37,981 nucleotides of DNA from Nitrososphaerota archaeon. Its GTDB lineage: Archaea; Thermoproteota; Nitrososphaeria; Nitrososphaerales; Nitrosopumilaceae. The stretch spans positions 1-37,981 of the forward strand of contig JABDBR010000012.1 of assembly GCA_013288545.1 (NCBI GenBank), given 5' to 3'. This document shows, piece by piece, positions 3,387 through 37,981 of this stretch. Position 1 is the first letter of the stretch. Each line of letters begins with the position of its first letter. Below the pieces are notes generated by a model, which was not told the DNA's origin, made no database searches, and was given only the letters and a program-made list of their open reading frames with translations. The translations under genes and the position numbers were made by a program.

Positions 3387-3459
3387 GTTTTATTTAAAGA
3401 ACCTTGAACCTCTTTCAAGAACTGGCGATCTGGCTAAATCTCGCTCTCTGAAAGATGGA

Positions 3460-3467
3460 TTTAAATA
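3460..3467 (+). promoter_or_regulatory. TATA box for 33-aa miniprotein
   Basis: TTTAAATA in an otherwise gene-free gap, about 36-43 bp before the ATG at 3503. Spacing predicts a transcript starting near 3490 with a short leader. Confidence 0.5.
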
Positions 3468-3502
3468 GTATGCAAGTTTTTTGTTGGTTAGGTAATTTAG
3501 AT

Positions 3503-3604
3503 ATGCAAGATTGGAGTCAAGCGGGCGTATACATACCATTGATGGTAGGATTGATACCAGGATTCATTTACTGGTGTGTAATTACCGCAAAGAAACACAA
3601 GTAG
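3503..3604 (+). CDS. 33-aa single-helix membrane miniprotein
   Basis: ATG at 3503, TAG at 3602-3604. It begins MQDWSQAG, has one hydrophobic helix (about residues 9-28, with Gly and Pro) and ends AKKHK. Support comes from the TATA box upstream and the T-rich tract just downstream (3617-3632), which together form a tidy transcription unit. Single-span peptides of this size are often accessory subunits of membrane complexes, but nothing in the sequence says which. Function unknown. Confidence 0.5.
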   Translation: MQDWSQAGVYIPLMVGLIPGFIYWCVITAKKHK

Positions 3605-5639: not shown

Positions 5640-5921
5640 TTATTCTTTAGTTATTTCCACTGTATCCTCAAGAACCTTGGTCTCTGTGATTTTGTTCACA
5701 TTGTCAATTACGGACTGGATAAAATCTGCAAAAGATTCTGCCTGAAGTCTATCTTTGAAAAGTATACTGTGGGCAGACTTGTCTTTGAGGGATATGATTA
5801 TCTCATTTTCAATTATCTCTAAAATCCCACTGATGAAAATTTCATTATCATCTTTTATGTATATTAGACTGGCAAGTTTCTGTGCTTCATAACTGTCTAT
5901 GCATGTGATATTTTTCTTCAT
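5640..5921 (-). CDS. Small hypothetical protein downstream of trpS
   Basis: 93 residues, starting MKKNITCIDSYEAQK. The middle alternates hydrophobic and charged residues (beta-rich, about 23-57) and the C-terminal third is a helix ending in acidic residues. It begins 5 bases after the trpS stop on the same strand, so it is almost certainly translated from the trpS mRNA. No family is recognised; the operon position is the only functional clue and does not prove a tRNA role. Confidence 0.6.
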   Translation of the reverse strand: MKKNITCIDSYEAQKLASLIYIKDDNEIFISGILEIIENEIIISLKDKSAHSILFKDRLQAESFADFIQSVIDNVNKITETKVLEDTVEITKE

Positions 5922-8564: not shown

Positions 8565-10189
8565 TCACGCTATACTTTGACCGAGTCAAAAAAATTCTTG
8601 GCAAGACTGTTCCCAAGGCAAAGCTTGTCGAGACTCTACCATTCATTGGGTTGGATATTGAGGATGAGACTGTTGACCACGTCAACGTAGAATACAGTCC
8701 AAACAGACCTGATTACTCTACTGATTATGGTATCATTACGGGTCTTCAAGGATTGCTTGGAATAAAACTTGGGATGCCTGCACTGAAAATAAAAAATGGT
8801 AAAAATACAATAAAAGCTCATCCTACTGTCTCCAAAATAAGACCATATGTTACAGCAATCGAGGCAAGAAATGGCAAGCTAGATGATGAAACAATACGAC
8901 AAATAATTACCATGCAAGAGGATCTTCATAATGGACTAGGTAGAAGACGAAAGAAAGCATCAATTGGAATTCATGATCTTGAAAAAATAAAATTCCCGTT
9001 ATACTACAAGACTGTAACACAAGAGCATAGCTTTGTTCCCCTTGAATCTGATGTATCCCTGACTGTAAAAGAGATACTAGAAAAAACAGAGACGGGAAAA
9101 AAATACAAGCATATCTTGGAAGGACATTCCAAAGTTCCGATTATTGTGGACTCGGATGGAAAAACAATATCGCTTCCTCCTATTGTTAATGCAAAACTAA
9201 CAGAGATGAATGCCAAAACTCGCAATTTACTTGTAGAGGTCACTGCAACTGACAAGAACGCTGCAGAAGGGGTTCTTGCAGTTGTAGAAAATACTTTACA
9301 GATTGCAGGATTTGAGATATATTCAGTAAAAATAACTGGAGCGGGAAATTCTACTCCTGTACTAAAGTCTCGAGATCTTGTGCTAGAGCCTGAGCTTGTA
9401 AACAAGACGCTAGGAATTGAAATATCAAATCAAGTTATTATAAAATCTCTTAAAAAAAGTAGACTTGATGCAAAGATGAGAGGTAAAAAGATTGTTTGCA
9501 CAATTCCACGGTATAGGACAGATATCTTTGGAGTGATGGACCTAGTCGAAGAAGTAGCTCTTGGTTATGGAATTCAAAATCTTGTACCTACAATGCCAGA
9601 GTCAGTCTCTGCTGGTGAGAGAAATGGTATCACAAAGACACTTGAGACTGTTCGCCAGATTATGGTTGGACTGGGCTATCTTGAGGTGATGAACTTTGAG
9701 CTTACCAGCAAAGAAATCTTGTATGAAAAAACCACTAGAGATTCATCTAAAATAATATCTGTTGCAGATTCAAAAAGTCAAGAGCATATTATTTTACGTG
9801 ATGTACTTATTCCTGGAATGATGGAAGTCTTGTCAAGAAACATTCACGAATCATATCCTCAAAAAATATTTGAGATTGGAACGGTGTTTGAGAAAGCCTC
9901 ACCAATCAATGAAGTAGTTCATCTTGCTTGCCTTGGTGCACACAAAGATGTCAACTTTACAGAAGTAAAATCTGTTTTACAATCTCTTCTAAAAACTGGC
10001 TTTAATCTTACATGTGATACCATGCCACAAAAGGAACCGATGTTTGTTGATGGAAGAACTGGCAGTGTAATGATAAATAGTAAGAAACTTGGCTCACTAG
10101 GAGAAGTAGATCCTAAAGTTGCTGATAATTTCAAGCTCAGAACACCAGTAGCTGGGTTTGAGATCAAGATTACTGACCTTTTGTTTTAG
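8555..10189 (+). CDS. pheT: Phenylalanyl-tRNA synthetase beta subunit
   Basis: Beta subunit of PheRS. About 544 aa, the shorter archaeal/eukaryotic form without the bacterial EMAP-like N-terminal domain. Order seen: B1-like N-terminus (MPVVTLYFDRVKKILGK), a B3/B4 editing region (about residues 90-270, with NGLGRRRKKASIGIHDLEK), a B5 DNA-binding-fold region (about 275-350), then the catalytic-like domain. It overlaps pheS by 10 bp and has a good Shine-Dalgarno site, consistent with coupled 1:1 synthesis. Confidence 0.92.
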   Translation: MPVVTLYFDRVKKILGKTVPKAKLVETLPFIGLDIEDETVDHVNVEYSPNRPDYSTDYGIITGLQGLLGIKLGMPALKIKNGKNTIKAHPTVSKIRPYVTAIEARNGKLDDETIRQIITMQEDLHNGLGRRRKKASIGIHDLEKIKFPLYYKTVTQEHSFVPLESDVSLTVKEILEKTETGKKYKHILEGHSKVPIIVDSDGKTISLPPIVNAKLTEMNAKTRNLLVEVTATDKNAAEGVLAVVENTLQIAGFEIYSVKITGAGNSTPVLKSRDLVLEPELVNKTLGIEISNQVIIKSLKKSRLDAKMRGKKIVCTIPRYRTDIFGVMDLVEEVALGYGIQNLVPTMPESVSAGERNGITKTLETVRQIMVGLGYLEVMNFELTSKEILYEKTTRDSSKIISVADSKSQEHIILRDVLIPGMMEVLSRNIHESYPQKIFEIGTVFEKASPINEVVHLACLGAHKDVNFTEVKSVLQSLLKTGFNLTCDTMPQKEPMFVDGRTGSVMINSKKLGSLGEVDPKVADNFKLRTPVAGFEIKITDLLF

Positions 10190-15371: not shown

Positions 15372-17654
15372 ATGCAAATAGAAACAACTCCTGAACTAGT
15401 TTCAAAGGTTTATGCTAAAATCACAGAAAATATTGCAAAATATAGAAAACTAGTCAACAGGCCGCTTACTCTGACTGAAAAAATTCTGGTAGGTCATCTT
15501 GATGATATTGAAAGTGCAAAAGATATAGAACCTGGTAAGAGCTATTCATTTCTCAGACCTGATAGAGTTGCACTACAAGATGTAACTGGCCAGATGGTGA
15601 TTCTACAATTCATGCAATCAGGTCTTAAACGAAGCGCACTTCCAACAACTGTTCATTGTGATCACCTCATTCGCGCTAAAGTTAGCGGAGATGTAGACAT
15701 TAAAGTTGCACTAGACGAAAACAGTGAAGTCTACAAATTTCTTGAATCTTCATCAAGAAAATACGGAATAGGGTTTTGGAAACCAGGTGCTGGAATTATT
15801 CATCAAGTTGTACTAGAAAATTATGCTTTCCCTGGTGGATTGATGATTGGAACAGACTCTCATACACCAAATGCTGGCGGCCTAGGTATGCTTGCTGTTG
15901 GAGTGGGAGGATTGGATGCAACAGAGGTGATGGCAGGATTTCCATGGGAGCTATTGTATCCAAAAAGAATTGGTGTGTATCTCAAAGGAGATCTAAACGG
16001 TTGGGTTGCACCAAAAGATGTCATATTGTATGTAGCATGGAAGCTTACCGTATCCGGCGGAACAAACGCCATAGTGGAATATTTTGGACCTGGCACCAAG
16101 TCAATTAGCTGTACTGGCAAGGCTACAATAACAAACATGGGTGCAGAAATTGGTGCAACATGTTCTGTATTTCCGTATGATGATAAGATGAAAGTTTATC
16201 TCAATTCAACTAATCGTGGACAAATTGCAGATCTTGCAGACAGATACAAAGACATTCTTGTTGCAGATCCTGAAGTTGAGCAAAATCCGGAAAAATATTT
16301 TGATAAAGTAATAGAAATTGATCTATCTACACTAGAACCATACATTGCAGGTCCTCATACGCCTGATCTTGCAAGACCGATATCTCGGCTAGCCGAAGAT
16401 GTAAAAGAAAATAAATATCTTGATACGATCTCTGTAGCTCTTATCGGAAGTTGTACTAATTCTTCTTATGAAGACATGACAAGGGCTGCATCTGTTGCAG
16501 AACAAGCAAAATCTCATGGAATTCATGTACAAATTCCTCTTCTTGTAACTCCGGGTTCTGAACAAATTAGAGCTACAATTGAACGAGATGGGCAGATGCA
16601 TACTCTAAATGATATTGGTGCAACTGTATTGGCAAATGCCTGTGGCCCGTGCATAGGACAATGGAACAGACCCGAGATAAAACCTGGCGAGCCAAATACT
16701 ATAGTTACTTCATTTAACAGAAACTTTCCTGGACGAAATGACGGCAGAAGAGAGACAATGGCATTTATGGGAAGTCCTGAATTAATTGTTGCACTTGCTC
16801 TTGGTGGTAGATTATCATTTAATCCACTAAAAGATACTCTAAAAGGATCTGATGGAAAAGAGTTCAAACTAGAACCACCGAAAAAAGCACCAGAGGTACC
16901 ATCAAAGGGATTCTCAAATATAGGTGCAATCTATGTTCCACCTGCTGCAAATCCAGACGAGATTGAAGTTATAATTAATCCTACAAGTGGAAGATTACAA
17001 AAACTAGAACCATTTCTAAAATGGGATGGTAAAGATTTTGTAGAATTGCCGCTCTTACTGAAGGCAAAAGGCAAATGCACTACAGATCACATCTCTCCTG
17101 CAGGTGCGTGGTTGTCATTGCGTGGTCATATCGATAAAATTAGTGACAACATATTCCTTGGCGCTGTTAATGCATTTACAAATGATGTTGGTAAAGGAAA
17201 AAACCAACTAAATGGAAACACCGAGTCATTTCCAGTCATTGCAAGACAATACAAAGAGAAAGGTATGAAATGGATAGTGATAGGGGACAACAATTACGGA
17301 GAAGGTAGTAGTAGGGAGCATGCTGCAATGTCTCCAAGATATCTTGGATGTGCTGCAGTTATTGCACGAAGCTTTGCACGTATACACGAAACCAATCTAA
17401 AGAAACAAGGAGTACTGGCGCTTACCTTTGTCAATCCATCTGATTATGACAAGATTCAGGAAACTGACAAAATAAGCATACTTGATCTATCTCAGCTACA
17501 GCCTGGAAAAAATGTCAAGTGTATACTAACTCATAAAGATGGAACAAAAGATGAGATTGTACTCAAGCATTCCTATAATGATTTCCAGATAAAATGGTTC
17601 AAGGCAGGTTCTGCTTTGAACATTATGCGTGAGAGAGAAGCACAAGCTGCATAA
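15372..17654 (+). CDS. Aconitate hydratase, mitochondrial type
   Basis: Interconverts citrate and isocitrate through a [4Fe-4S] cluster. Cluster ligands are Cys361 (IGSCTNSSYED), Cys424 and Cys427 (ANACGPCIGQW); the 63- and 3-residue spacing equals that of the mammalian mitochondrial enzyme. The swivel domain is seen in KCTTDHISPAGAW and GDNNYGEGSSREHAA. The opening NRPLTLTEKILVGHLDD and the closing QIKWFKAGSALN also follow the mitochondrial family rather than AcnA/IRP1 or AcnB. Start set at ATG 15372 (760 aa) by the TATA position; TTG at 15354 would add six residues. Monocistronic. Confidence 0.93.
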   Translation: MQIETTPELVSKVYAKITENIAKYRKLVNRPLTLTEKILVGHLDDIESAKDIEPGKSYSFLRPDRVALQDVTGQMVILQFMQSGLKRSALPTTVHCDHLIRAKVSGDVDIKVALDENSEVYKFLESSSRKYGIGFWKPGAGIIHQVVLENYAFPGGLMIGTDSHTPNAGGLGMLAVGVGGLDATEVMAGFPWELLYPKRIGVYLKGDLNGWVAPKDVILYVAWKLTVSGGTNAIVEYFGPGTKSISCTGKATITNMGAEIGATCSVFPYDDKMKVYLNSTNRGQIADLADRYKDILVADPEVEQNPEKYFDKVIEIDLSTLEPYIAGPHTPDLARPISRLAEDVKENKYLDTISVALIGSCTNSSYEDMTRAASVAEQAKSHGIHVQIPLLVTPGSEQIRATIERDGQMHTLNDIGATVLANACGPCIGQWNRPEIKPGEPNTIVTSFNRNFPGRNDGRRETMAFMGSPELIVALALGGRLSFNPLKDTLKGSDGKEFKLEPPKKAPEVPSKGFSNIGAIYVPPAANPDEIEVIINPTSGRLQKLEPFLKWDGKDFVELPLLLKAKGKCTTDHISPAGAWLSLRGHIDKISDNIFLGAVNAFTNDVGKGKNQLNGNTESFPVIARQYKEKGMKWIVIGDNNYGEGSSREHAAMSPRYLGCAAVIARSFARIHETNLKKQGVLALTFVNPSDYDKIQETDKISILDLSQLQPGKNVKCILTHKDGTKDEIVLKHSYNDFQIKWFKAGSALNIMREREAQAA

Positions 17655-32754: not shown

Positions 32755-34515
32755 CTAAAAAAGATCTTGAACTACTTTCTGAATGCTGATTATCTCTTCT
32801 TCCTCTTGCTTTATTTTCTTCTCTATTACACGAACCATGGAATCCTGCCATACGTGATGGGAAAAGAAATTGTGGTAGGTGTTTGCTGCAGTCATCTCAT
32901 CATCTACGACTGTATCTTCTAGGAACTTTGTGACAATGGTATCTGTCAATTTTAGTATGCGCTGATTTAATTTGACGCTCTTAAATATTGGCTCTAACTT
33001 GGATATGTCTTCTTTAAAGTCGCCTTTTGTAAGCAGAATTTTTTCATGAAGGATCTTAAAGTATACTGCCACAAAGAACAAGGTTGCATATCTTTTTGTT
33101 TTGTGTCCTCCCTTCTTTCCATAGTTTAGGCTTTTTTTTGCATATTCTTTTGTACAATATGGATATAGAAGAAGTCTGTAATCGTCCTTTAGTTTCTCAT
33201 TGAAAACTTCGTCATACTTGCTACCTCTTGGTAGAAACTGTGCCGGAGAGCTGTATGCCTCTGTTGGTCTCTGCTCTATTCCTGCAACAAATGCCTGTAT
33301 TGCATCTTTTGCCACTATCACTTTTTTGTGGTTGTCAGGTAGATACTTGTTGTAAATCATATCTCCGACAAATTCACTTTGATGTGATTTTGTTTTAGTA
33401 TCAAATGAGCCACCCTGAATCTCATAAAAATAATGAATGTTTTCCATTTGCGATTTTAATGATTTATGAAAATCCATCAACGATACTAGATCCTTTCCTC
33501 TTACTGCATTCTGCGAGTTTCTGTATTTTGTAATATTGTTCTGATCAAGTTCGTCTGCAGCCTTGATGATTGTAACAGTTATGCTTCCATCCAAATTATG
33601 AGTGCGTCTTGCATGATCTAATACTGAGTTAGATGTCTGTGCTCCGTTTACTATTTGAGGTGAGTGCAACATTATGGAGTTGTCCTCTAATTCCTCAAAA
33701 TCGCTTACTACTATTGTTATTCCATTGTTATAATAAAAGAACTTGTGGGGAACTTCTTGCAAAGTTTCTCTCAATCCTTTGTTTACTGTGGTTTTGAACT
33801 GCATCCACTGTCTAATGTTGGATTCAAAAACATAGTCCTTGTTCTTTGTAACAAAATTTGTAAGCTCTCTTAGTTTTAAAATCCCCAGAAGCGTATTCTG
33901 ATATCTTAACTTAGTTTCAAGCTTGATGGGGGCTTTCTTTCCTGCGGCTGGTTTTTTTATCCTATCCCAAAGTTTCTGTATTATTACATCGACATCGTAT
34001 ATCTCAACTGAATCAAAATTCTCATCCTCTACCTTTTGATCTGTCACATAGATGCACTCTATCTTGAGATTCTTTTCTTGGATCTTTGTTACTAGGTGGG
34101 CAAGTTCTGGACGCATCTTTGAAATGTCTTTTCCCTGTAATCTCTTGACGTCTTCTTTGAATTTTGCTATGGCTTCAATTGAATGGGATGTTCCATACTT
34201 TGATTGGAATAGATAGATCTTGTCTTCAGAAAAATCTACTGGAAGATATGCATCAATTCCTAGATCGTTTGCTCCATCCACAATCGCGTCAGTTGCATCA
34301 TCTTCAGTTGCCTCAAAGACTCTAGTTAGCACCCATTGTAAGAAATTATGGCCTTTCTCAACTTCATTCTGTGCACTTTCCGCATATTCTTTTATGCTGT
34401 CTTTGACATTCTGTGAAAATCCATCTAACGGTTGACCATTGGTATACTGATATGCGACAGGTTTTGCACCTGGAATGTACTCTAGTAATCCGTTACTTCT
34501 TTCAGCCAAATTCAC
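32755..34515 (-). CDS. AIPR-family abortive infection protein
   Basis: 586 aa from GTG at 34515. AIPR signature segments are FFYYNNGITIVV (about residues 259-270) and SPQIVNGAQTSNSV (about 285-298). Before them is a nuclease-like core, DLGIDAYLP with Asp88 and FQSKY with Gln104-Ser-Lys106, a PD-(D/E)XK arrangement of the Mrr kind. The family is linked to phage resistance by abortive infection. A CTAAATAG box at 34533-34540 fits a leaderless GTG. The gene sits against the tRNA-Cys fragment marking the element border, on the host side. No methylase partner is seen. Confidence 0.82.
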   Translation of the reverse strand: MNLAERSNGLLEYIPGAKPVAYQYTNGQPLDGFSQNVKDSIKEYAESAQNEVEKGHNFLQWVLTRVFEATEDDATDAIVDGANDLGIDAYLPVDFSEDKIYLFQSKYGTSHSIEAIAKFKEDVKRLQGKDISKMRPELAHLVTKIQEKNLKIECIYVTDQKVEDENFDSVEIYDVDVIIQKLWDRIKKPAAGKKAPIKLETKLRYQNTLLGILKLRELTNFVTKNKDYVFESNIRQWMQFKTTVNKGLRETLQEVPHKFFYYNNGITIVVSDFEELEDNSIMLHSPQIVNGAQTSNSVLDHARRTHNLDGSITVTIIKAADELDQNNITKYRNSQNAVRGKDLVSLMDFHKSLKSQMENIHYFYEIQGGSFDTKTKSHQSEFVGDMIYNKYLPDNHKKVIVAKDAIQAFVAGIEQRPTEAYSSPAQFLPRGSKYDEVFNEKLKDDYRLLLYPYCTKEYAKKSLNYGKKGGHKTKRYATLFFVAVYFKILHEKILLTKGDFKEDISKLEPIFKSVKLNQRILKLTDTIVTKFLEDTVVDDEMTAANTYHNFFSHHVWQDSMVRVIEKKIKQEEEEIISIQKVVQDLF

Positions 34516-34567: not shown

Positions 34568-34609
34568 AGGTGAGGAAGGGATTTGAACCCCTATAGATTC
34601 GCTTTGCAG
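34568..34609 (-). other. tRNA-Cys(GCA) 3' half: att site of an integrated element
   Basis: Read leftwards: anticodon loop CTGCAAA (GCA), 3' strand of the anticodon stem GCGAA, variable TCTAT, T arm AGGGG-TTCAAAT-CCCTT, acceptor strand CCTCACC and discriminator T (U73, as in tRNA-Cys). Upstream bases 34610-34614 read TGCTT instead of the TTCGC needed to pair, and no D arm or 5' acceptor exists, so identity stops at the anticodon loop. This is the classic anticodon-loop-to-3'-end attachment core left on one side after integration. Confidence 0.8.
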
Positions 34610-35456
34610 AAGCAATAATACTACTAATACAACATTACAACGATTTAGGACTTGTGTCAAAGATCTAAACTGGAACGATTACGAATCGTGGCTCGTTGCA
34701 AAAAAACAAAAACACTATGCACATGTAATGCTGGACTATTCCAGAAAATACAATGATCTAGCTTTTACTGATGATCTCATATCGTTAGAATCTACTAGGA
34801 AAAAACTAGACGTACTGAAGGCAATTGCTAATCTCACTCGTTACATGGATATCAGATACGACAGCTACTTTCATGATGAATTTACTAATTGGCTAAAACG
34901 CAAAGAGATCAAATGGACTACAAAATCTGCTGTTAACAATTACAGCTTATCTAATAGAATAAAGCTTGAGGACGTCTTGGATTCAATCGAGAAGCTACCC
35001 TACAAGCACAGGATATTCGCATTATTCGTATTGGTATCCGGACTACGAACAGAGGAGGCACTTAGGGCATTTAACAATCACTCTACACTGTGTACTGATG
35101 GAATACTGGAATTATTCTGGGATAGGGGCACAAAGAAAGCCAATGCAGTATATTGTCATCCATTACTTCATGATAAAATTGATTTTAAGACGAGTAAAGC
35201 CGTCTATACATTTTTGAATAAACGAATACTAGGATATGAAATACGATTTTTACGAAAGCTGAACTTTACTATTAATGCTGGCAAAGTAGATCCTTTGTTG
35301 GCTGAGTTTATGCAGGGTAGACGAGGAAATATCTCTCAAAAGCATTATTTTCTACCCTCTATGTATGAGCACAAAAACAAGTGGCTAGAAGCATGGAATC
35401 TGATTATCCGTGACGTTATGGGATGTGATAAAACTAGGTGCTCAAAAGTGATCTAA
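34587..35456 (+). CDS. Archaeal tyrosine recombinase, C-terminal part (IntC)
   Basis: The frame is open from 34587, inside the tRNA-Cys fragment, with no start codon until ATG 34728. The 47 upstream codons read as protein (KDLNWNDYESWLVAKKQKHY), so the N-terminus is missing rather than mis-called. From ATG 34728 the catalytic Arg lies in SGLRTEEAL (Arg107). The archaeal QGR...HY pattern (FMQGRRGNISQKHYF, Tyr207) gives the second Arg and the nucleophile. This matches SSV-type int genes, whose attP lies within the gene and which are cut into IntN and IntC on integration. The TGA at 34584 lies in the tRNA T-loop, which is presumably chromosomal sequence here. Confidence 0.75.
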   Translation, partial: TPIDSLCRSNNTTNTTLQRFRTCVKDLNWNDYESWLVAKKQKHYAHVMLDYSRKYNDLAFTDDLISLESTRKKLDVLKAIANLTRYMDIRYDSYFHDEFTNWLKRKEIKWTTKSAVNNYSLSNRIKLEDVLDSIEKLPYKHRIFALFVLVSGLRTEEALRAFNNHSTLCTDGILELFWDRGTKKANAVYCHPLLHDKIDFKTSKAVYTFLNKRILGYEIRFLRKLNFTINAGKVDPLLAEFMQGRRGNISQKHYFLPSMYEHKNKWLEAWNLIIRDVMGCDKTRCSKVI

Positions 35457-36107
35457 ACTCAGTCTAGCCCTGTTGTTACATCTCATCTAACAGTATGTAC
35501 AGTAGTCGTAGTCACAGTCGTGATCCATAAGTAATGTATGTGGTACACAGTACATATCAGTAAATTCTATTGGCAGCACATTACACCATTACTAATTAGT
35601 AAATCAATAAGCAATACATCATATCAGTAATTACAGTAGTTCAACAGATTAGTAATAACAGTTTGATTGTATAATTCTCCCAATAGAAACGACTTTGTTC
35701 GTAACTTAATACAGTAAGTAGACTAGTCTGATCAGGCTTACACATATTCAGAGTATTTGAAATAACATAATGTACCATATCAGTAAATCACTCATTACAA
35801 ACTACATTGGGTACAGTAAATATGATTCGATTGCATAATTGTAAAACATCGGGGAACTTTGTTTGTAAGCCATTACAATACGCAGCGCATATTATCAGGT
35901 GTACACACTATTAGAGACTTATTCTATTAACGACTGTATCGTATAATCGTGCATATCAGTAAATCACTGTTTTTACTAATATCAAAAGATCATAGTACAA
36001 TAAACTAGTGTAGTGATTACGCCTGATCTAAATCCCAGAGATATACACTATGATCTCAATTTCTCAACATAATACTGCTTATTAGAAAAGAAATTTTCAT
36101 ACCCTCA
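35457..36107. other. Non-coding AT-rich tract, candidate origin or control region
   Basis: No protein-like ORF on either strand. It holds iteron-like repeats, a diverged internal duplication (around 35665-35715 and 35830-35885), the palindrome AGACTAGTCT (35720-35729), and the inverted repeat GATCATAGT (35988-35996) / ACTATGATC (36047-36055) before the nuclease gene. Such a density of repeats inside an integrated element suggests a replication origin or partition site; this is inference. Confidence 0.5.
35553..35968 (+). repeat. Iteron-like direct repeats CATATCAGTAA(ATCACT)
   Basis: Copies at 35553-35565 (CATATCAGTAAAT), 35620-35630 (CATATCAGTAA), 35776-35792 and 35952-35968; the last two share the full 17 bp CATATCAGTAAATCACT. 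Shorter TTAGTAA-type echoes occur near 35596 and 35649. The spacings are 67, 156 and 176 bp, too irregular for CRISPR. Confidence 0.6.
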
Positions 36108-36935
36108 TTGGTAGATGGTAAAATCACTCCCTATGCAAAGGAAAAGGGACAAAAATTAGAAAATATGTTGGAAAAATGCCTTCAAGAAATTGTTCGTAAA
36201 TTACGGGCATGTGGAATTGATTGCTATTACCTTTTCAATAGAAAACAAGAGGGTAGAGGAAATAGTGGGCCAGAGGCACTTTTAGTTATTCATCAAAATG
36301 GTCGAAATTACTATTTTTACATAGAAGCTAAGAATCACGGTGATTACCGAGAATGGTCTTTGAACAAAGTAAAGGAAAACATCATAACAAAATTTAGAAA
36401 AATAGAATTCTGTCCGTCTGATAAGAACTCAGAAACAATAGGAATAGTGATAGGTCATATCAAAACAGCAGAAGATAATGTTCTTCATTTATGGTCTGGT
36501 GGAATACTTTATCTTAATACCGGTGAATTGCCACTGAATATCAGTTCTACTAGTGATAAAATATACTATGATAAATTAAAGGGATATCTGTTATTTTACA
36601 TATCTGAAATATGTGAAAACATGGTAAATCAAGATAGTAAATATGAAATTGATATTATCAATGAAGATGATCTAATAGTTAAAAACAAGAACAAAATTCT
36701 AAAAAAATACAAAATAAATCAAATTAAAGGTAAAGGATTTGTGTATCTAGGTCCACGTTTAATGGATTTTTTCAGCGTTGGTAGGGGAAAAAGAGAAGGA
36801 ATCAAGATTGTAACACCTTGGAAATTAATTACAAGTTATGATGGTTATTCCACTAAGCGAAGAAAAATAGGTTCTGGATTGTATTGCATTGATCTGTCTA
36901 AGAGTAGGAAAACTAAATCTGAAACAGGTTGCTGA
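36108..36935 (+). CDS. PD-(D/E)XK nuclease-like protein of the element
   Basis: 275 aa from TTG at 36108. The catalytic-type core is GNSGPEALLV (Pro55-Glu56), then YYFYIEAKNH (Glu73-Ala-Lys75), the spacing of Holliday-junction resolvases and restriction enzymes. An N-terminal helix with Glu18 and basic residues precedes it. The C-terminal half (about 150-275) is Lys-rich and unassigned. More AT-rich than the core genes. It may be a resolvase for the element, a restriction-type nuclease or a defence gene; I cannot choose. An inverted repeat lies just upstream. Confidence 0.55.
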   Translation: MVDGKITPYAKEKGQKLENMLEKCLQEIVRKLRACGIDCYYLFNRKQEGRGNSGPEALLVIHQNGRNYYFYIEAKNHGDYREWSLNKVKENIITKFRKIEFCPSDKNSETIGIVIGHIKTAEDNVLHLWSGGILYLNTGELPLNISSTSDKIYYDKLKGYLLFYISEICENMVNQDSKYEIDIINEDDLIVKNKNKILKKYKINQIKGKGFVYLGPRLMDFFSVGRGKREGIKIVTPWKLITSYDGYSTKRRKIGSGLYCIDLSKSRKTKSETGC

Positions 36936-36946
36936 AACAAAAGGTA

Positions 36947-37213
36947 TTACAATACGAGTTTTTGTACACTGACCAGCAGTTGAACTAGTTTCTGACCTTT
37001 GTCTGTCAGTTTGTATGTAGTTTGAATGGGTTTTGTTGGCTTTACTGTTCTATCAATTAGTTTACGATTTGTCAAGTCTTGCAATGAAACTGAGAGTACA
37101 CTTCGAGTTTTAATGACGGTTTTTTCTAGTTCAGAATATCGTGCTTCATGGTTATCGTGAAGATAAAACAATATTCGAATGTCACTGATTTGGAATAGTT
37201 CTTCCCAGTCCAA
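36947..37213 (-). CDS. Winged-helix regulator (HxlR/ArsR-like)
   Basis: 88 aa. Helices DIRILFYLHDN, RYSELEKTV and TRSVLSVSLQDLTNRKLI make a winged helix-turn-helix, with a wing at TVKPTKPIQTTYKLTDKG and a C-terminal helix. It lacks the conserved Cys of many HxlR sensors. ATG at 37213 has an AATATATG box at about 37229-37238 on its strand. It is divergent from the secreted-protein gene, across a gap containing two TAGTACC copies and the palindrome-like CGGTTTAACCG, so it may regulate either. Confidence 0.7.
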   Translation of the reverse strand: MDWEELFQISDIRILFYLHDNHEARYSELEKTVIKTRSVLSVSLQDLTNRKLIDRTVKPTKPIQTTYKLTDKGQKLVQLLVSVQKLVL

Positions 37214-37273
37214 TGGTTATAGCAAACTAGCATATATTCATAAGATAGTACCATGTTCTAACAGAGGTAGTAC

Positions 37274-37284
37274 CGGTTTAACCG
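37274..37284. promoter_or_regulatory. Operator candidate between regulator and secreted-protein gene
   Basis: CGGTT-T-AACCG inverted repeat, just before a CTTAATAG TATA-like box (37289-37296) for the rightward gene. Two TAGTACC direct repeats lie at about 37245 and 37268. Confidence 0.35.
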
Positions 37285-37356
37285 AGTACTTAATAGGAAC
37301 TCAAAGAAAAATCACTCAATGAAGTCGTATCTACTTGGAACGATGGGTGGATTGAT

Positions 37357-37981
37357 TTGAGATACAATTCTACCAGAACAGTAATCATTGTTACAATATT
37401 GGCCCTTGGAGTAGGTATTGTTATTGGTACATCAATAAATGCAGAAGCACAGACGTCATTACCTTCTATTCCAAAGTGGATAAAAAATACTGCAAAATGG
37501 TGGGGTGAGGGCCAAACTAGTGATACAGATTTCATAAATGCAATCCAGTGGCTAATTGATCAGAAAATTATTGTAATTTCAAATAATGTACAGCCTTCTC
37601 CTAGTACATCAATACAGCAAACACAACAAGTGGCTGCTGCATCATTGAATAATTTACTTCCTACGAGAGATGACATAGGCACAGAATGGGTAATTCATGA
37701 TGCTACACCTTTTAAGAAAAATGCAACTGGTTTTGTAGATGGACTATCTCAGAGTTTTACAATAGGTTCAGATTTTACTGCGTCAACATCAACTGTGGCA
37801 GTTTACAAATTTGATTCATCATATGATGCTAACAAGTACTATGATAATTTTGTTGCAACATCTAAGGCAAGTGGAGGGTATACTGAATGGATACCCGGAG
37901 GCATTAATGCCGATAAATGCTATGGAAAACAGCAAGATTATCCAGGAGGGAGCATTAACACTCTACTCTGCATCAAAGGTA
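37357..37981 (+). CDS. Secreted surface protein, 3' end cut by window
   Basis: Starts at TTG 37357. The in-frame codons before it have no start, and the ATG at 37319 runs into a stop in another frame. The signal peptide covers about residues 1-35 (TVIIVTILALGVGIVIG ... NAEA). Then comes IPKWIKNTAKWWGEGQTSD, continuing with a FINAIQWLIDQKII helix: a repeat type common on thaumarchaeal and other archaeal surface proteins. A Ser/Gln linker and a larger beta-rich domain follow, still open at the window end. The partner or ligand is unknown. Confidence 0.7.
   Translation, partial: MRYNSTRTVIIVTILALGVGIVIGTSINAEAQTSLPSIPKWIKNTAKWWGEGQTSDTDFINAIQWLIDQKIIVISNNVQPSPSTSIQQTQQVAAASLNNLLPTRDDIGTEWVIHDATPFKKNATGFVDGLSQSFTIGSDFTASTSTVAVYKFDSSYDANKYYDNFVATSKASGGYTEWIPGGINADKCYGKQQDYPGGSINTLLCIKG

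Follow-up and report, generated by a model that had tools for sequence, protein, structure and literature searches.

Left end of an SSV-type split-integrase element at a tRNA-Cys gene of a Nitrososphaerota archaeon, with a stop codon in its attachment core

RESULTS

A tRNA-Cys remnant at a conserved host locus

The DNA analyzed here (the window, a whole contig of 37,981 bp from an archaeal bin of 1.39 Mb that is 85% complete) almost certainly holds the attL of an integrated SSV-type ("suicidal integrase") element inserted in tRNA-Cys. The novel point of this element is an in-frame stop codon in its attachment core. The core (positions 34569 to 34609, reverse strand) is the 3′ half of tRNA-Cys(GCA), 41 nt long; its complement, CTGCAAAGCGAATC...CCTCACC, begins with the first anticodon-loop base, ends with the discriminator, and matches the intact tRNA-Cys of relatives and both repeats of a complete sister element in the genome G006, which belongs to the same genus. 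An earlier sequence-only reading had correctly named the tRNA and described the remnant as exact from anticodon loop to discriminator, but it placed the start at 34568 and the length at 42 bp. Window base 34610 is an A where the intact tRNA-Cys of relatives has a G, so the remnant ends at 34609.

ARAGORN detected no tRNA-Cys in the window. In congeners it found intact tRNA-Cys(GCA) with the same 3′ half (0 to 3 mismatches over 42 nt), and the core was present with at most 3 mismatches in 30 of 37 genomes of the window's genus. These 30 comprise 27 empty sites, one site cut by a contig end (G016), the window genome, and G006. At the empty sites the order is uninterrupted: an AIPR gene on the 3′ side, tRNA-Cys, and a histone gene that lies some 45 bp beyond the tRNA 5′ end. 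The window keeps the first part of this order. The AIPR family (PF10592) host gene (positions 32755 to 34515, reverse strand; Pfam E = 3.8 × 10−55) lies outside the element as the left neighbor of tRNA-Cys, 53 bp from the core, compared to about 49 to 63 bp from tRNA-Cys in most empty-site relatives; past this gene and the core, an integrase replaces the 5′ half of tRNA-Cys. Across the genus, the gene for this abortive infection-like protein is conserved beside tRNA-Cys on the chromosome; it is not mobile cargo. In seven species (G001, G003, G006, G007, G015, G022, and G031), the AIPR gene is separated from tRNA-Cys (or from attL) by a gene for a 123-aa protein (L032:16108-16479); the latter gene is missing from the other species and from the window.

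Introns in tRNA genes and split tRNAs both exist in Archaea, and a partial tRNA could in principle be one of these instead of an attachment site. We consider this extremely improbable here: the break precedes the anticodon, the 27 congeners carry tRNA-Cys without interruption, and G006 has a complete element bordered by the same core.

The far border of the window's element appears to be unassembled or unbinned, since no second core copy (at most 3 mismatches), IntN, remainder of the element, or histone neighbor of tRNA-Cys was found in the host bin, where the core occurs once. We infer that the IntN of this element and the intact tRNA-Cys are on the missing contig. The second core foreseen by the sequence-only reading was therefore lacking in the window's own bin, whose contig stops 3.4 kb into the element, but it was present in the sister G006 as a 42-bp repeat, together with an IntN entering an intact tRNA-Cys.

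The integrase fragment beside the remnant

An integrase frame leaves the remnant rightward (IntC, positions 34587 to 35456, forward strand) and covers two domains of an SSV-type tyrosine integrase, the core-binding and the catalytic one. It is open over 289 aa, has no start in its first 47 codons, and extends back into the core, where TGA closes it at positions 34584 to 34586. Both the startless frame and the catalytic motifs SGLRTEE and QGR..HY had been pointed out from the sequence and were borne out: R154, R223, R245, H253, and Y254 are invariant among 12 homologues, and K183/K184 is nearly so. Searched alone, the window IntC had no Pfam match, and its family assignment draws on a profile and on relatives. 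The profile of the 12 homologues matched the SSV1 integrase among solved structures (4dks/3vcf; E = 7 × 10−5), and 8 of the 12 matched PF16795 (Phage_integr_3; best E = 2.8 × 10−11). An AlphaFold2 model of the window IntC, built from 7 sequences (mean pLDDT of 74), returned the SSV1 integrase as top PDB hits in Foldseek, 3uxu and 3vcf, at weak E values (0.009 and 0.03, respectively). Given the PF16795 and SSV1 matches, we discarded the idea that the thaumarchaeal split integrases arose independently. The IntC of G006 is 94% identical in amino acids; dN/dS between the two is 0.09, which, as judged from these substitutions, shows that IntC has been under strong constraint. Over the 38 codons between the core and the first in-frame ATG, dN is 0.057 and dS is 0.144, too weak for a test of selection.

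That first ATG (positions 34728 to 34730, forward strand; codon 48) raises the alternative of an unsplit integrase starting there or nearby, with the tRNA remnant merely adjacent, as in a pNOB8-type or decayed element. The ATG exists and yields a 242-aa ORF. However, homologues align about 40 residues upstream of it, AlphaFold2 places it within a confident helix (residues 42 to 58), and the missing N-terminal part sits at the other border in G006 and in nine further elements. An unsplit integrase is thus highly unlikely, and ATG 34728 is not the natural start. The initial suggestion of an SSV-type IntC next to a partial tRNA is instead supported by the SSV1 and PF16795 matches and by the IntN partner at the other border in G006. 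The first predicted helix of IntC begins at residue 12, directly past the core, which would place the attachment site in the linker that connects IntN to the remainder of the protein.

The element and its complete sister

Of the integrated element, the window contains the left 3.4 kb (positions 34610 to 37981), up to where the contig stops; three blocks share 91 to 92% nucleotide identity with the G006 element, and the GC content is 0.344, compared to 0.373 in the host part of the window. Besides IntC, this part encodes a 275-aa ORF with no family found (positions 36108 to 36935, forward strand), in a region for which blastn found no counterpart in the G006 element; an HxlR-type winged-helix regulator (positions 36947 to 37213, reverse strand; Pfam E = 4.5 × 10−12), 98% identical in amino acids in the G006 element; and a protein that is probably secreted or membrane bound, whose frame runs off the contig (positions 37357 to 37981, forward strand), with homologous pieces at L032:12690-13769 and L032:10848-11261.

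G006 carries the whole element, 11.6 kb, between two cores 11,577 bp apart that are identical 42-bp repeats. At one border the core is followed by IntC; at the other, an intact tRNA-Cys is entered by IntN, an 82-aa frame that ends KRGEEGI* at the core TGA. The sites of G003 and G007, which are closest to G006 at the tRNA-Cys locus, are empty. Among 10 ORFs of the G006 element, Pfam recognized only Fic, trypsin-like peptidase, AbiTii, HAD (phosphatase), and DUF4352 domains and no fusellovirus structural or replication gene. Likewise, Pfam and PHROGs gave no convincing structural gene among the window ORFs, and no relatives were found among IMG/VR viral contigs, whether by window protein or by alignment A1. 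The proposal that everything right of 34568 belongs to an integrated element therefore stands, from 34610 and with the G006 sister in support; no viral or replication gene that would make it virus- or plasmid-like was recognized. Because no replication or capsid gene was recognized, the tRNA-Cys element is best called a cryptic integrated element.

A split-integrase family with several tRNA targets

The joined integrase was matched in 23 of 400 genomes of the order, and the IntC profile was matched in 15 of 250 genomes of the family. In this archaeal family, both borders lie on a single contig for ten elements, which measure 3.8 to 13.6 kb: that of G006 at tRNA-Cys, two at tRNA-Gly(TCC) (G028 and G107), two at tRNA-Thr(CGT) (G070 and G158), and five at tRNA-Thr(GGT) (G335, G209, G303, G203, and G416). 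Their cores are mostly 42 to 50 bp; in G028 (L083), the IntC border lies at the contig start and the core is readable over 36 bp only. As in G006, IntN stands at the other border in the nine further elements. Joining of IntN and IntC in silico, proposed as a check in the sequence-only reading, gave an open IntN-core-IntC frame in nine of the ten (351 to 384 codons, counted from the preceding stop), while that of G006 is interrupted by the core TGA. Neither this TGA nor the recurrence of such elements in the archaeal family had been anticipated in the sequence-only reading.

Several members of the family differ in particulars. At L110 (G416:C5; IntC frame at 8613 to 9554, IntN frame at 15378 to 15662), IntN is 65% identical to that of the tRNA-Cys element and IntC belongs to the other subfamily, that of tRNA-Thr(GGT); its integrase is a probable IntN/IntC chimera, as modeled for pT26-2 integrases. 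Very small split-integrase elements (3.8 to 4.3 kb) occur at tRNA-Thr(GGT) in L077, L108, and L109. At the tRNA-Gly(CCC) loci L068, L072, and L073, the complete tRNA (positions 3458 to 3531, 5712 to 5787, and 1603 to 1676 of the oriented copies, respectively) adjoins IntC and lies mostly within the integrase frame, and no IntN partner was found at these three loci; the position of attP within the integrase gene may therefore differ there. G400, a candidate for an unsplit integrase (query residues 10 to 358), proved to be an attL-side IntC with chance similarity upstream.

Proposed course of integration

In the free element, a single integrase gene would contain the 3′ half of tRNA-Cys, antisense, within the linker that connects IntN (about 75 aa) to IntC. 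Recombination near the anticodon loop would combine the 5′ half of the host tRNA with the 3′ half brought by the element, restoring a working tRNA-Cys beside IntN and leaving the host's own 3′ half beside IntC. The integrase gene would be cut in two by this event and presumably inactive while integrated.

We infer the exchange point of the tRNA-Cys element from a related tRNA-Thr element, the only one for which it is shown. In G158, attL and attR agree over 20 bp only, at the anticodon end, and the native tRNA-Thr(CGT) of the relatives L113, L124, and L126 carries the attL version of the T-arm, not the attR version. Together these observations place the exchange on the anticodon side, with the T-arm at attR supplied by the element; exchange in SSV1 is likewise reported on the anticodon side (PMC8371274). 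In G158 (L066), the functional tRNA-Thr(CGT) now carries the T-arm and 3′ acceptor strand of the element in place of its own, such that a host tRNA was partly rewritten.

An in-frame stop codon within the core

The integrase frame within the remnant reads GGT GAG GAA GGG ATT TGA ACC CCT. The TGA (positions 34584 to 34586, forward strand) falls in the T-loop, at tRNA base A57; hosts with G57 have CGA (Arg) instead. The tRNA 3′ half is readable in three frames, and it is the frame used by the tRNA-Cys element that gives T-loop CGA with G57 or TGA with A57. Both bases occur in the genus, mostly tracking the locus tree, and A57 is common to the clade around G006. The tRNA-Gly(CCC) loci use the same frame; on their IntC side, one host has CGA and the other two have TGA.

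With exchange at the anticodon, the IntC side would come from the host, and the window TGA alone then shows only that the host has A57. The rejoined frame of G006 stops at codon 88, inside the core, and TGA is present at both borders; any circle excised from G006 therefore carries TGA. As read from the sequence, a rejoined integrase of the tRNA-Cys branch would give no single chain unless the TGA is read through, and, once the element of G006 has excised, its core TGA would still be expected to leave the integrase broken. Because the G006 insertion is apparently recent, arrival of the element with TGA is mildly favored over later mutation or conversion.

Mobility and fate of the tRNA-Cys branch

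Between the window and G006, third-position divergence is 32% across 24 host genes but 15% in IntC and 7% in the HxlR gene (Fisher P = 3 × 10−10 and 2 × 10−8 versus host genes, respectively). Similarly, dS is mostly 0.5 to 1.1 in host genes, 0.34 in IntC, and 0.125 in the HxlR gene. Given that the element genes are far less diverged than the host genes, these comparisons suggest that the tRNA-Cys element has probably moved since the hosts parted and that the two insertions are probably independent.

Combined with the core TGA, this mobility and the constraint on IntC can be read in three ways: the copies are trapped, the stop is tolerated (by two chains or readthrough), or integration occurred in trans. 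We favor the first, by a little over even odds. The core TGA, taken from the A57 of the host T-loop, would have broken the integrase, with exit possible only with a related integrase in trans; the constraint on IntC would then reflect that most divergence between the two copies built up in a mobile ancestor with a working integrase and a core CGA. Consistent with this, A57 occurs natively in the clade of G006, the window core lies on the IntC side and so would be host-derived if exchange is at the anticodon, the tRNA-Gly(CCC) IntC shows TGA at the same codon in two loci and CGA in a third, and excision in trans by a related integrase is documented for SSV2 and pTN3 (PMC8371274). However, one of the two TGA copies in G006 must be element-derived unless it changed later, the empty sites of G003 and G007 make the G006 integration look recent and leave little time for such change, and no other integrase of the same family was found in G006.

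It is possible, though we judge it distinctly less likely, that the integrase acts as two chains or through readthrough of the TGA, in which case integration need not be suicidal. The predicted model places the TGA in the linker before the first core-binding helix, such that each half would keep whole domains; the element moved after the host split, with IntC and HxlR divergence (15 and 7%) well below that of host genes (32%); and IntC fragments of SSV1 and SSV2 retain reduced recombination activity in vitro (PMC8371274). Against this, the second chain would have no in-frame ATG, GTG, or TTG to start from upstream of ATG 34728 and downstream of the TGA, and use of ATG 34728 would cost it 47 residues, the conserved W35 and L36 among them; SSV2 IntN and IntC do not interact in solution (PMC8371274); and the case draws on a single complete element, in which gene conversion between the 42-bp copies is possible. 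More tentative still is the generalization that tRNA-Cys-branch elements move with a TGA-bearing integrase gene, the stop being imposed by the host T-loop, and that a two-chain or readthrough enzyme survives the cutting. If true, this would be an escape from the suicidal-integrase paradox, in that integration would no longer kill the integrase.

DISCUSSION

The self-splitting integrase design is known from hot-spring viruses. The elements described here extend such integrases, studied mainly in hyperthermophiles, to a recurrent family in ammonia-oxidizing archaea with several tRNA targets. In this family one stretch of DNA serves as both a tRNA 3′ half and integrase coding sequence, in any of three frames, and a single host tRNA polymorphism (base 57) toggles one of these frames between Arg and stop. 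Through this dual coding and this switch, comparisons among natural variants can be used to test how self-disrupting integrases persist, a long-standing puzzle. We searched the literature for attP stop codons of suicidal integrases and found nothing relevant.

The closest design is that of SSV1/SSV2, pXQ1, and XQ2 of Sulfolobus (PF16795), which likewise have attP within the integrase gene, split into IntN and IntC at a tRNA 3′ half, and use a core of about 42 bp; the catalytic domain is homologous to that of the SSV1/SSV2 type. In contrast to that type, the present elements reside in Nitrososphaerales hosts, have no fusellovirus gene found, and in the tRNA-Cys branch carry an in-frame stop in the core. 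The pTN3/pT26-2 elements of Thermococcales share a self-disrupting integrase and a tRNA attP but have other hosts. Elements of the pNOB8 type also combine an archaeal tyrosine recombinase with a tRNA target; however, the pNOB8 integrase stays whole after integration, whereas here it is split: IntC lacks the N-terminal domain, which relatives carry at their other border.

Within the phylum, a 2019 survey of 74 thaumarchaeal elements names in its main text one split SSV1-like integrase, NitEve-E3, and gives a median att length of 17 bp (PMC6563490). For "Ca. Nitrosotalea okcheonensis" CS, the same survey describes four elements targeted to tRNA genes (PMC6563490); if G006 is that strain, its element may already stand in the survey tables. 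Going by this main text, the split-integrase kind is already known but hardly described in the phylum of the window organism. NitEve-E3 of Nitrososphaera evergladensis (PMC6563490) resembles the present elements, by its description there, in having an SSV1-like integrase split on integration and in being cryptic. Unlike that one case in the survey's main text, the family described here occurs in several genera and at several tRNA targets.
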